A DNA stretch of 64,000 bases from Gymnodinialimonas phycosphaerae (lineage in GTDB: Bacteria; Pseudomonadota; Alphaproteobacteria; Rhodobacterales; Rhodobacteraceae): positions 3,934,001-3,998,000 of the forward strand of contig NZ_JAIMBW010000001.1 in the NCBI RefSeq assembly GCF_019195455.1. The letters run 5' to 3'. Positions 13,781 to 18,873 of the stretch are shown piece by piece; within the stretch, counting starts at the first letter, position 1; each line of letters starts with the position of its first letter. Made by a program: the position numbers and the translations under genes. Below the pieces are notes generated by a model, which searched no databases, was not told the origin of the DNA, and saw nothing but the letters and a program-made list of their open reading frames with translations.

Positions 13781-13906
13781 AGTGCTTTCCTCACGGTAGG
13801 GCCCATTTGACACGGGTTCGGTGACGACGTCTGGTCTAGGGGCGACATTTATGGCATACGGTTTATGTTGACGCCCCCCGCTCAAATTGATCAAGGACTG
13901 GTGCCC

Positions 13907-16408
13907 GTGACCCGTTTCTCCGCCCCCATTGCCGAACAGATTTGGGATATGAAGTACCGCCTGAAAGAGGCTGACGGCACGCCGATCGATTCCTCGGTCG
14001 AAGATACCTGGCGCCGTATCGCGCGGGCCCTGGCGGCAGTGGAAGAGGACGCGTCGACGTGGGAAGACCGTTTTTACACCGCCCTGGAGGACTTCAAGTA
14101 TCTGCCTGCGGGCCGCATCGTCGCTGGTGCGGGCACGGGGCGCAGTGTGACGCTGTTCAACTGCTTCGTGATGGGCACGGTGCCGGATTCCATGGGCGGT
14201 ATCTTCGACATGCTCAAAGAGGCCGCCTTGACGATGCAGCAGGGGGGCGGGATCGGCTACGATTTCTCGACCATCCGGCCCAAGGGGGCGGACGTGAAGG
14301 GCGTGGCGGCGGATGCGTCCGGCCCGCTCAGCTTCATGGACGTCTGGGACGCGATGTGCCGCACGATCATGTCGGCGGGTTCGCGGCGCGGCGCGATGAT
14401 GGCCACGATGCGCTGCGACCACCCCGATATCGAGGATTTCATCGCCGCAAAGCAGGACCCCGCCCGTCTGCGCATGTTCAACATGAGCGTTTTGGCGACA
14501 GACCCCTTCATGGAAGCCGTAGAGGCGGACGGCTCGTGGGACCTGGTCTTTGGCGATCGCGTCTACCGCACCGTGCAGGCGCGGGATCTGTGGAACAGGA
14601 TCATGCGCGCGACCTATGACTACGCCGAACCTGGCGTGATTTTCATCGACCGGATCAACGCCGAGAACAACCTGAACTACGCCGAGACCATCTGTGCAAC
14701 GAACCCCTGCGGCGAGCAGCCTTTGCCGCCCTATGGTGCTTGTTTGCTTGGGTCCGTAAACCTCGCGCAACTGGTGGAGCGGCCCTTCGAGGCCGACGCG
14801 GATCTGGATTCAGACGCCTTGGGCGATATCGCCGCCACGGCGATCCGCATGATGGACAACGTCGTGGACGCCTCTCGTTTCCCGCTGGAGGCGCAGGCGC
14901 AAGAGGCCGCCGCGAAGCGTCGGATTGGCCTGGGTGTCACGGGGCTGGCCGACGCGCTTGCCATGTGCGGCTTGCGCTATGGCGCGCCGGAGGCGGCAGC
15001 CAAGACCGAGGAATGGATGGCCCTGATCGCCAACGCCTCTTACCGGGCGTCGGCATTGCTGGCCGCAGAAAAGGGCGCGTTCCCGCTGTTTGACGCAGCC
15101 GAATACGCCAAGGCCCCGATGGTGAAACGGTTGGACGCCGACGTGCAGGCGCTGATCGCGAAGCACGGGTTGCGCAACGCGCTTTTGACCTCGATCGCGC
15201 CCACGGGCACAATTTCGCTGTTTGCGGGCAATGTCTCGTCGGGGATCGAGCCGATCTTCGCCAACGCCTACACTCGCAAGGTGCTGCAAACAGATGGCAC
15301 GCGGACGGAAGAGGAGGTCGTGGACTTCGCCGTCGCCGCCTGGCGCGATTTGCACGGTGACACGCCGCTGCCGGACTATTTTGTCAACGCCCAGACGCTG
15401 GCGCCGCTGGATCATGTTCGTATGCAAGCCGCCGCACAGCCGTGGGTGGACAGCAGCATCTCCAAGACGATCAACGTGCCCGAGGATATCAGCTTCGAGG
15501 CCTTCAAGGACGTCTACGCCGAGGCCTATGCGACTGGCTGCAAGGGCTGCACCACCTACCGCCCCAACGACGTTACGGGGAGTGTGTTGAGTGTGACGGA
15601 GGAGAAAGCAGAAGCTGCGATGCATGCAACATTCGGGGACGCCCTACTTTTCCATCTCGCAGATTCAGGAAAAAAGGGCACCGACGTGGTGCGCGAGTCT
15701 GGTGTTTCACATGATGTAGTGAAGAAATTGATGACCCGAAAATCATCTTCGACAAGTGCGGAAAACGCCGTGCTGATCGCCAAAGCCTTCGGCATGGATC
15801 TGGAATACTTCATGCAAAAGACTGACGCCCCCGAAGTCGTCGCCCAAACCGACGCCGAACCGCTCCAACCCCATGGCGACGTCATCTACATGTCCGAGCC
15901 GCTCGACCGGCCTCAGGCGCTGGAGGGCAACACCTACAAGGTCAAATGGCCCGACAGCGAGCATGCGCTTTATATCACCATCAACGACATCGTCCTGCAG
16001 GGTCACCGCCGTCCGTTCGAGGTCTTTATCAACTCCAAGAACATGGAGCATTTCGCCTGGACCGTGGCGCTGACCCGGATGATTTCCGCCGTGTTCCGGC
16101 GCGGGGGCGACGTGTCCTTCGTGGTGGAAGAGCTCAAGGCGGTCTTCGACCCGCGGGGCGGGGCGTGGATGAACGGCAAATACGTGCCTTCGATCCTGGC
16201 GGCGATTGGCGGCGTGATCGAAAAACACATGATCCATACCGGCTTTCTGGCGGGGGAGGGGATGGGCCTGAAGTCCGATCCGCAGGCCGAGGTCGTGAAC
16301 CTGGGCCTGCGTCCTGGCCCGGCCTGTCCCGCCTGCGGGCAGCATGATCTGCGGATGGTCGAGGGGTGCCTGACCTGCGGCAGTTGCGGCCATTCCAAGT
16401 GTGGCTGA
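13907..16408 (+). CDS. nrdJ: Class II (adenosylcobalamin-dependent) ribonucleotide reductase with an HTH-like insertion
   Basis: An 833-residue enzyme reducing ribonucleotides with a B12-generated thiyl radical. It has LFNCF (Cys86), the active-site loop NPCGEQPLPPYGACLLGS (Cys268, Glu270) and APTGTISLFAGNVSSGIEP. A C-terminal TSCPD domain (about residues 660-770) follows, then a Cys-rich redox tail (CPACGQ, CLTCGSCGHSKCG). The GTG at 13907 follows AAGGA and starts the conserved TRFSAPIAEQIWDMKYR; an ATG at 13865 is less likely. Residues about 572-638, in the linker before TSCPD, resemble a Cro/C1-type helix-turn-helix encoded in lower-GC DNA (see 15620-15820). No NrdR box or cobalamin riboswitch was seen upstream. 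Confidence 0.95.
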   Translation: MTRFSAPIAEQIWDMKYRLKEADGTPIDSSVEDTWRRIARALAAVEEDASTWEDRFYTALEDFKYLPAGRIVAGAGTGRSVTLFNCFVMGTVPDSMGGIFDMLKEAALTMQQGGGIGYDFSTIRPKGADVKGVAADASGPLSFMDVWDAMCRTIMSAGSRRGAMMATMRCDHPDIEDFIAAKQDPARLRMFNMSVLATDPFMEAVEADGSWDLVFGDRVYRTVQARDLWNRIMRATYDYAEPGVIFIDRINAENNLNYAETICATNPCGEQPLPPYGACLLGSVNLAQLVERPFEADADLDSDALGDIAATAIRMMDNVVDASRFPLEAQAQEAAAKRRIGLGVTGLADALAMCGLRYGAPEAAAKTEEWMALIANASYRASALLAAEKGAFPLFDAAEYAKAPMVKRLDADVQALIAKHGLRNALLTSIAPTGTISLFAGNVSSGIEPIFANAYTRKVLQTDGTRTEEEVVDFAVAAWRDLHGDTPLPDYFVNAQTLAPLDHVRMQAAAQPWVDSSISKTINVPEDISFEAFKDVYAEAYATGCKGCTTYRPNDVTGSVLSVTEEKAEAAMHATFGDALLFHLADSGKKGTDVVRESGVSHDVVKKLMTRKSSSTSAENAVLIAKAFGMDLEYFMQKTDAPEVVAQTDAEPLQPHGDVIYMSEPLDRPQALEGNTYKVKWPDSEHALYITINDIVLQGHRRPFEVFINSKNMEHFAWTVALTRMISAVFRRGGDVSFVVEELKAVFDPRGGAWMNGKYVPSILAAIGGVIEKHMIHTGFLAGEGMGLKSDPQAEVVNLGLRPGPACPACGQHDLRMVEGCLTCGSCGHSKCG
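15620..15820 (+). other. HTH_XRE-like domain inserted in the NrdJ linker
   Basis: Codons 572-638 of nrdJ. The segment reads as a five-helix Cro/C1-like fold: FGDALLFHLADSGKKGTDVV, then the turn ESGVSHDVVKKLM, then KSSSTSAENAVLIAKAFGM and DLEYFM. The pattern GVS-x6-L-x3-K followed by ENA-x2-IAKAFGM is what one sees in XRE-family repressors. GC over 15601-15780 is about 51%, against a flank well above 60%, with AAA, GCA, TCA and GGA codons that the flanks avoid. The flanks (YRPNDVTGSVLSV before, DVIYMSEPLDRP after) are ordinary alphaproteobacterial NrdJ linker ends. No intein splice motifs are present. Confidence 0.7.
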
Positions 16409-17778: not shown

Positions 17779-18873
17779 ATGGGTACGGGCTTTCAGGGCG
17801 CGTTCGTGATTGCATGGGCGCAGACCTGTATTGAGGGATTTCCGGCAGAACCAGAAATAGAACTGGTTGAAGGGATGAGTTGGAGCTGGCATGGCCAGCT
17901 GATGCCGTTGGAGGGTGATCCATCGGCCCTTCTCCTGACAGCCAGCCGGGATCAGGATGAGCTTCGTGCCCGAGCGGCGCGGGTGGTGCGCAAACTCTTG
18001 CAGCACCCCGCGCCGGGCCCCGCAGAATTCGCCGCGTCCGACGCCGATCCCCTGTTTCGTGGGGCGTTTATCGTCAGCGATGGCGCGAAGTTTCATACCG
18101 TCGTTCCGATCTTGCTGGAAGATGGCGCCGCGCCGCTGCTGTTGTTTGCAGGCAATCCGCCACCCTCAGGGCGCGAGTTGACGGTCGTGCACCGCAACGA
18201 GGAAACCCTCACACCGACCCCGTCTGATGCGCCCTCGGTGATCTGTTTCACGCCGGGCACACGCATTCGCACGGAAGACGGCGACGTCGCGATTGAAGAG
18301 CTCGGCACCGGCGATCGTGTCTTGACCCGCGACAATGGCCCGCAAGAGGTTCTGTGGTCCGGCCACCGCCGCATGTCCGGCGCGCGCCTGTTCGCGATGC
18401 CTGATCAACGACCGATCCGGATGCGCGCGGGCGCGTTGGGGATCGACCGGCCCGACGATGATCTGATCGTCTCGCCCGAACATCGGGTACTTGTCACCGG
18501 ACGCGCCGCGATGGACCTCTGGGGTGAGCATGAGGTTTTGGTGCGCGCCGCCGATCTGGTGGGCGACAGCCGCATCACCGTCGACCATTCCCTGCGCGAG
18601 ACGTTCTATATCCACCTTATGCTGGACCGGCACGAGGTCGTCTGGGCCAATGGCATGGCGGTGGAATCGTTCCACCCCGGCTTCATGGGTCTCGATCATC
18701 TGACCAACCTGCAACGCAATTCAATGCTCGAGATGCGGCCTGAACTGGCCGACAACCCCCACGCCTACGGCGCGCCCGTGCGGCGCATGTTGAGCCGGGC
18801 CGAGGCAGCGATCCTGATCCATGGCGCGCCCACCAAGCCGATTGCCGAAAGATCCGCCTTCACCGCGCATTGA
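17779..18873 (+). CDS. Hint (Hedgehog/intein) domain protein
   Basis: A 364-residue protein. Residues 1-150 are an unassigned N-terminal region (MGTGFQGAFVIAWAQTC...). The Hint domain starts at Cys156 in CFTPGTRIRTEDGDVAIEELGTGDRVLTRDNG, followed by LVSPEHRVLV-type block residues (IVSPEHRVLVTG) and a HPGFMGLDHL end. Such stand-alone Hint proteins are numerous in Rhodobacteraceae and are thought to cleave or modify themselves like Hedgehog. There is no C-extein or homing endonuclease, so this is not an intein. No signal peptide is obvious. It is monocistronic with a terminator at 18909-18932. Confidence 0.85.
   Translation: MGTGFQGAFVIAWAQTCIEGFPAEPEIELVEGMSWSWHGQLMPLEGDPSALLLTASRDQDELRARAARVVRKLLQHPAPGPAEFAASDADPLFRGAFIVSDGAKFHTVVPILLEDGAAPLLLFAGNPPPSGRELTVVHRNEETLTPTPSDAPSVICFTPGTRIRTEDGDVAIEELGTGDRVLTRDNGPQEVLWSGHRRMSGARLFAMPDQRPIRMRAGALGIDRPDDDLIVSPEHRVLVTGRAAMDLWGEHEVLVRAADLVGDSRITVDHSLRETFYIHLMLDRHEVVWANGMAVESFHPGFMGLDHLTNLQRNSMLEMRPELADNPHAYGAPVRRMLSRAEAAILIHGAPTKPIAERSAFTAH

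Follow-up and report, generated by a model that had tools for sequence, protein, structure and literature searches.

A recurrent and hypervariable domain of predicted Cro/CI fold in the class II ribonucleotide reductase NrdJ of Gymnodinialimonas phycosphaerae and related genera

We analyzed a 64,000-nucleotide stretch of the Gymnodinialimonas phycosphaerae genome (contig NZ_JAIMBW010000001.1, positions 3,934,001 to 3,998,000 of the forward strand; hereafter the window), focusing on nrdJ, the gene of an adenosylcobalamin-dependent ribonucleotide reductase that harbors a putative helix-turn-helix (HTH) domain in its linker region. The encoded protein scores 585 bits against NrdJ_Z (NCBIfam, TIGR02504), above the curated cut-off of 400, and Pfam identifies barrel, all-alpha and TSCPD domains, with the HTH segment sitting between barrel and TSCPD. 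The features of the gene are the following (aa, amino acids; pLDDT, predicted local distance difference test).

13865..16408, + strand: nrdJ, adenosylcobalamin-dependent (class II) ribonucleotide reductase, 847 aa (open frame; NrdJ_Z; Pfam domains)
14159..15559, + strand: catalytic barrel, aa 99-565, with invariant C100, C282 and C293 (PF02867, E 2.3e-126)
15530..15949, + strand: putative imported tract, the cassette plus its own flanks, ~aa 556-695 (from identity windows; edges approximate)
15566..15631, + strand: left tether, aa 568-589, mostly predicted disordered (pLDDT <50 for 568-584)
15632..15814, + strand: predicted Cro/CI-type helix-turn-helix domain, aa 590-650
15710..15736, + strand: predicted recognition helix, aa 616-624, HDVVKKLMT (AlphaFold2 model and alignment of the type)
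15815..15925, + strand: right tether, aa 651-687, mostly predicted disordered (pLDDT <50 for 654-682)
15935..16231, + strand: TSCPD domain, aa 691-789 (PF12637, E 1.3e-10)
16325..16402, + strand: C-terminal cysteine-rich tail, aa 821-846, with invariant Cys 821, 824, 835, 838, 841 and 846

A first-pass annotation, made from the sequence alone, had described the frame and the catalytic cysteines as intact, and this holds: the gene is open from 13865 to 16408, and C100, C282 and C293, together with the tail cysteines, show no variation across 56 aligned NrdJs. From the roles of their counterparts in T. maritima NrdJ, we take C100, C282 and C293 to be radical/redox catalytic-type cysteines; a full-length model of the window NrdJ has T. 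maritima NrdJ as its top PDB match. The foreign composition claimed for the inserted patch was also borne out, as guanine-cytosine (GC) content is 50.3% over aa 590-650 versus 63.7% on either side, and third-position GC is 57% in the HTH versus 82% (5') and 85% (3') around it. The neighborhood of the gene can be aligned with that of genus-mates, and nrdJ is not prophage-encoded. A Pfam scan of the window NrdJ yielded no S24 or other repressor C-terminal domain, and no intein splicing or homing domain in the insert.

With respect to the domain itself, the window HTH taken alone stays below Pfam thresholds. A 113-aa piece scores 15.5 bits for HTH_3 and 16.3 bits for HTH_26, the whole protein 12.1 bits for each, and the pieces overall range from 15.5 to 16.6 bits (HTH_3, cut-off 23) and from 16.3 to 17.5 bits (HTH_26, cut-off 22). 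The match in PHROGs is stronger (phrog_4, transcriptional repressor, E 5.6e-6). Corresponding inserts were collected as 49 pieces, representing 47 of the 48 family carrier genomes described below plus two same-genus genomes (G005 and G012); 46 of the 49 match HTH_3 at E <=0.01 (best 9.4e-17), and phrog_8 is matched by 45. Because the inserts match HTH_3 as a group, most of the doubt over the weak match of the window HTH is removed. AlphaFold2 models five helices (pLDDT 83-91) on disordered tethers, with structural likeness to 434 Cro, P22 c2, SinR and DdrO among the matches listed, and a PDB sequence search with an 81-aa piece returned only designed proteins and serpins. The insert is thus predicted to be a domain of five-helix Cro/CI (XRE) fold, located between the Pfam borders at aa 565 and 691 where the first-pass annotation had placed an HTH-like domain.

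That annotation had further proposed a recent insertion, whose strain-specificity was to be checked, at a place where relatives possess a short linker. The linker is indeed plain in 10 of 12 same-genus genomes; in the other two (G005 and G012) the position is occupied by HTHs whose sequences are quite different. A profile built from four such linkers was run over 394 family genomes (393 genera); it matched 372 of them, and the match spans an HTH in at least 48, or ~12% of the genera sampled in the family. Among the matches listed, those spanning an HTH score at least 76 bits and flank-only ones at most 64 bits, and every one of the 48 linkers inspected contains an HTH-like stretch after a GSVL motif. 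Two frames are damaged: that of G021 (L017/L082) shifts just after the HTH, and that of a 49th genome (G220, L080) is interrupted inside it. A class-wide search of 385 genomes, five of them visibly of the same family, used a flank profile tuned to this family; among the matches listed, none spans an HTH except the window's own. Of 29 loci from that search (L124-L152), 28 could be parsed, with no HTH in linkers of at least 75 aa and the remainder being shorter. Named carriers include Antarcticimicrobium sediminis, Puniceibacterium confluentis, Roseovarius nubinhibens ISM, Pseudooceanicola batsensis HTCC2597 and Sulfitobacter sp. HI0040, which is why we read the family as Rhodobacteraceae; short linkers occur in Puniceibacterium sediminis and Antarcticimicrobium luteum. 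The NrdJ insertion is therefore recurrent and hypervariable rather than one recent, strain-specific event, with HTHs of many kinds in at least 48 of the 394 genomes.

Several linkers and genes deviate from this general scheme. One linker (L078, G154 C21) holds a tandem of two unlike HTHs, of which the first belongs to the type seen in the window. Another relative (L081, G383 C13) has a 1140-aa NrdJ frame whose core contains the LAGLIDADG-like motif LLGLLIGDG and is read as an intein; it possesses a PHGDV tail and no HTH. Contigs G009 C2 and G010 C2 each show an extra NrdJ-like match (55% identity, one in-frame TGA). The linkers L065, L017 and L209 share the tail PGGTAGQPPxAPxGGGFTPT, which has 11 matches in G266 including its own (E <=1, one with a stop) and one further match at G000:C1:406589; its DNA contains the palindrome TGCCCGGCGG, and the tail may be an in-frame repeat element.

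To quantify variability, HTH and core were compared across 62 distinct HTH-bearing NrdJs (1891 pairs), the HTH segments including some tether. In the 25 pairs with a core identity of at least 90%, median HTH identity is 0.27 (0.12-0.46), the closest HTH pair (0.72) has a core identity of 0.86, and HTH identity overall hardly tracks that of the enzyme (Spearman 0.20). On a 176-row NrdJ core tree, a quick one with some long branches and a sample enriched for carriers, presence and absence of the HTH amount to 42 changes, at least 16 of them forced by well supported branches; the sisters L003 (no HTH) and L006 (HTH) are very close in core. Exchange is also suggested by the right flank of the insert, as judged in 20-residue windows against nine of the ten plain genus-mates: from aa 659 the best identity of the window NrdJ is 0.88 to six HTH-bearing NrdJs of other genera versus 0.67 to plain genus-mates, at aa 679 the values are nearly level (0.92 and 0.88), and from ~aa 699 the genus-mates lead, a pattern expected for a recombined cassette. 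The right-tether tail PEVV..DAEP..PHGDV also occurs in NrdJs of other genera, in many that bear an HTH and in some plain ones. For the second Ser of the GSVLS motif, the codon AGT is used by 31 of 64 carriers and by 21 of 104 plain genes, at a share of 3% among core Ser codons. At the left insert edge of the window (15578-15595) the codons read GGG-AGT-GTG-TTG-AGT-GTG, of which GGG, TTG and AGT are enriched in HTH-bearing nrdJ of many genera. Mean third-position GC is 0.62 in HTHs and 0.83 in cores (51 rows, genome G021 counted twice). Among close HTH pairs, nonsynonymous differences (pN) are below synonymous ones (pS) in 16 of 16, with synonymous divergence (dS) saturated in nine. Substitution patterns in the HTHs thus look purifying, and the cassettes are apparently exchanged by homologous recombination through conserved flanks.

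A kinship to phage repressors, suggested in the first-pass annotation, is corroborated by the presence of the window's HTH type in prophage and phage repressors. Proteins with this type, NrdJ included, match in 30 of 198 family genomes at E <=0.001. Ten stand-alone loci were examined, with the protein readable in nine; two combine an HTH with Peptidase_S24, one of these lying ~6.6 kb from a phage terminase gene, and another regulator lies ~3.4 kb from a serine recombinase gene. The regulator L273 of G124 has seven relatives in IMG/VR contigs (44-70% identity), and all eight share GVSRDVINK; as GVSRDVIN was one of six scan words, the shared helix was partly selected, but the operator was not. 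This operator, GTGCCANNTGGCAC, was read off L273 and occurs, at up to two mismatches within 300 bp on either side of the gene, two to six times around each of the eight VSRDVINK repressor genes, compared with an average of at most 0.075 in shuffled sequence; the upstream pair is spaced 26 bp in seven loci and 24 bp in one. By eye, other palindromes of the same layout stand beside regulators with other helices (L276, L278, L279, L281 and L282), none was seen at L274, and L275 and L280 are ambiguous. As an observation in its own right, L273, L276, L278, L279, L281, L282 and L323-L329 outline a prophage immunity region whose regulators are either ~113 aa long or of the S24 kind and whose palindromes come in pairs ~26 bp apart; helix and operator seem to co-vary in it, offering a ready set for a recognition code.

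The phage-type helix recurs in NrdJ itself, as GVSRDVINKL in P. confluentis (L154) and as VSRDVLNKL in G083 and G067. For the P. confluentis NrdJ HTH and the matching phage repressor domain, GTGCCAATTGGCAC is the predicted candidate target DNA. Within the helix, residue 616 (a His in the window) varies most, with six residues in 11 NrdJs of the type and two or three at the other helix positions, and by analogy with 434 repressor we assume it to contact a base; positions outside the helix vary as much as residue 616 in these 11 HTHs.

What the sequences support is a domain at one constant position that varies on an otherwise conserved enzyme, a purifying pattern, and a relationship between the window's HTH type and the repressors of prophages and phages. 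The reading that we favor, with a probability of roughly 40%, is that the HTH of the window NrdJ is a specificity domain captured from a phage repressor that would confer repressor-like phage immunity. The enzyme's own dimer would supply the two-fold symmetry needed by a Cro/CI domain, the HTH would bind operators of incoming temperate phages, and this binding would block early promoters and silence the phage. Oligomerization driven by deoxynucleoside triphosphates (dNTPs) may tune or gate the silencing; in another species, monomeric NrdJ assembles into dimers or tetramers in response to dNTPs (PMC5704485). The variability of the domain, its patchy distribution and its exchange would all be explained if phages exerted frequency-dependent selection. 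A second large-subunit gene (frame of 1223-1329 aa) is present in 10 of 10 genomes checked, being in the window's genome a second class II reductase of PRK07562 type with 1241 aa (G000:C1:1231863-1235588, minus strand, L315), so that the window NrdJ would be free for a second job. The wider proposal that NrdJ is a modular anti-phage platform, with exchangeable specificity domains, silencing tied to dNTP supply and trade between genera, appears rather doubtful.

A number of observations weigh against capture from a phage repressor and immunity. The window helix, VSHDVVKKL, differs from the phage helix with a predicted operator, and no phage match to the window HTH was found; searches for viral relatives gave none for the window HTH, L039 and L163 and two weak ones for L041, with L163 and L041 standing for two further types. 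HTHs of types II, III and V are nearest to other NrdJ HTHs and not to phage repressors. The tree of the window's type keeps NrdJ and phage HTHs largely separate, with 10 of 11 NrdJ HTHs apart and L064 grouping with phage HTHs (2 changes, weak support); entry from phage may therefore have been rare and old, or the direction may have been the reverse. Eight of 62 HTHs are acidic (net charge of -3 or less, in a rough 66-aa window). In structural comparison, the phosphonate enzymes HEPD and MPnS hold the same fold; it belongs there to the solved enzyme chain, whereas the NrdJ HTH sits on predicted disordered tethers and is exchanged. A small excess of perfect palindrome arms in HTH-bearing nrdJ promoters, detailed below, favors self-binding. 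Close donors were sought in annotated phages with three HTHs, with only weak matches below 60% identity; for a phage-borne NrdJ with the insert, tblastn of the 113-aa linker gave no match among 50,697 phage and 72,556 plasmid records. Tandem-operator patterns had no exact match in viral contigs.

Next in standing, and in our view unlikely, is that the HTH fold has been reused as a protein-protein or oligomerization module, either helping the reductase to assemble or binding a partner (a phage antirepressor, for example), with no contact to DNA. A structural role predicts conservation, yet enzymes that are nearly identical carry very different HTHs, most relatives have none, and disordered tethers are predicted on both sides of the domain.

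Ranked after it is self-directed DNA binding, which we consider improbable: NrdJ would act as a trigger enzyme on its own promoter or host genes, or as a chromosome tether near replication. The fold is that of a DNA-binding domain, and metabolic enzymes with DNA-binding domains have precedent in PutA, BirA and NadR, where these domains are conserved and self-regulatory; the NrdJ HTH, in contrast, varies, can be missing altogether and has no self-operator that was detected. Palindromes were scanned in 200 bp upstream of 27 HTH-bearing and 98 plain nrdJ loci, the latter still including duplicates and some other families, against letter shuffles, which is a weak test at these small numbers. Seven of eight paired bases were reached in 41% of HTH-bearing loci, no more than in shuffled (42%) or plain (44%) ones, whereas prophage repressor promoters reach this level in seven of nine (shuffled 39%) in the same scan. 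A perfect 8-bp arm is present in three of the 27 HTH-bearing promoters (11%; shuffled 5%, plain 2%). No site of the operator class GTGCCANNTGGCAC was found at nrdJ loci. At zero mismatches the eight HTH-NrdJ genomes searched, a set without the P. confluentis genome, have no site, and G124 has four, of which three lie at its prophage regulator. When flanks were included and one mismatch was allowed, nine of 11 genomes had no site, G084 had one and G124 had four; a reversed control pattern gave 0 to 2 matches per genome, so that about one chance site per genome is unsurprising. As the helix differs in six of the eight genomes, only G083 and G067 provide a direct test of the operator, and both lack it under either setting. 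Autoregulation, as put forward in the first-pass annotation, thus found no backing in these scans, although they probe the helix of the window itself only weakly and would miss a non-palindromic or distant site. Variable HTHs are also difficult to reconcile with host targets that stay the same, barring co-evolution of the operators. A scan for NrdR boxes gave best sites of at most four mismatches in one of 27 HTH and 11 of 98 plain loci, nothing decisive, and no second protein with the window's HTH was found in its genome (next E 0.19). An internal start for a separate HTH protein was considered, as GAGGAG precedes many HTHs, and was rejected because no consistent start codon was seen by eye.

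The least probable reading is that of a passenger in a tolerant linker, in which pieces of phages or regulators would end up through illegitimate recombination and then drift, serving no function. It can draw on the tail that recurs elsewhere in the genome in some of the same linkers, on the intein-like insertion in one relative (L081) and on the two broken frames (L017/L082 and L080). Against it, the other HTH-bearing genes inspected, contig ends aside, keep both their frame and an entire HTH, a single fold class accounts for nearly all inserts (46 of 49 match HTH_3), and pN is below pS in all 16 pairs, although part of this purifying selection could predate insertion.

Compared with known systems, the window NrdJ shares barrel, catalytic cysteines, TSCPD region and cysteine-rich tail with class II NrdJ (NrdJ_Z), most of which lack its extra Cro/CI domain between barrel and TSCPD. 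Phage and prophage CI/Cro repressors (phrog_4 and phrog_8; HTH with Peptidase_S24; the ~113-aa L273, L274 and L323-L329) share the window's HTH type, their recognition helix is the same or one residue off in three NrdJs, and operators are predicted for this helix; the window NrdJ differs in being without an S24 domain, and no operator of that class was found at nrdJ. The target-recognition domains of type I restriction HsdS are likewise specificity domains swapped on a constant enzyme, a likeness of working for which homology is not claimed, and neither methylation nor cleavage is involved. Elsewhere in the window, a frame at 17779-18873 with a CFTPGTRIRTEDG stretch resembles a Hint-type domain protein, as judged from its translation.

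The first-pass annotation knew of no described case, and we found no published report of a ribonucleotide reductase with an HTH in the open-access literature. The main text of an analysis of ribonucleotide reductase insertions and extensions (PMC9669993) is without the terms helix-turn-helix, HTH or DNA-binding, and PMC5704485 is without helix-turn-helix, DNA-binding or DNA binding. Even without immunity, the family provides a natural collection of some 60 distinct HTH domains attached to a single unchanging enzyme, and as an operator is already predictable for one HTH class, what the domain binds is directly testable. Proven immunity would represent a new kind of defense, one that would escape gene-name searches, since the gene carries the annotation of a housekeeping enzyme. 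If the favored reading is true, a core enzyme of DNA-precursor synthesis would also act as a phage-immunity factor with sequence specificity, and this specificity would evolve through the exchange of domains.

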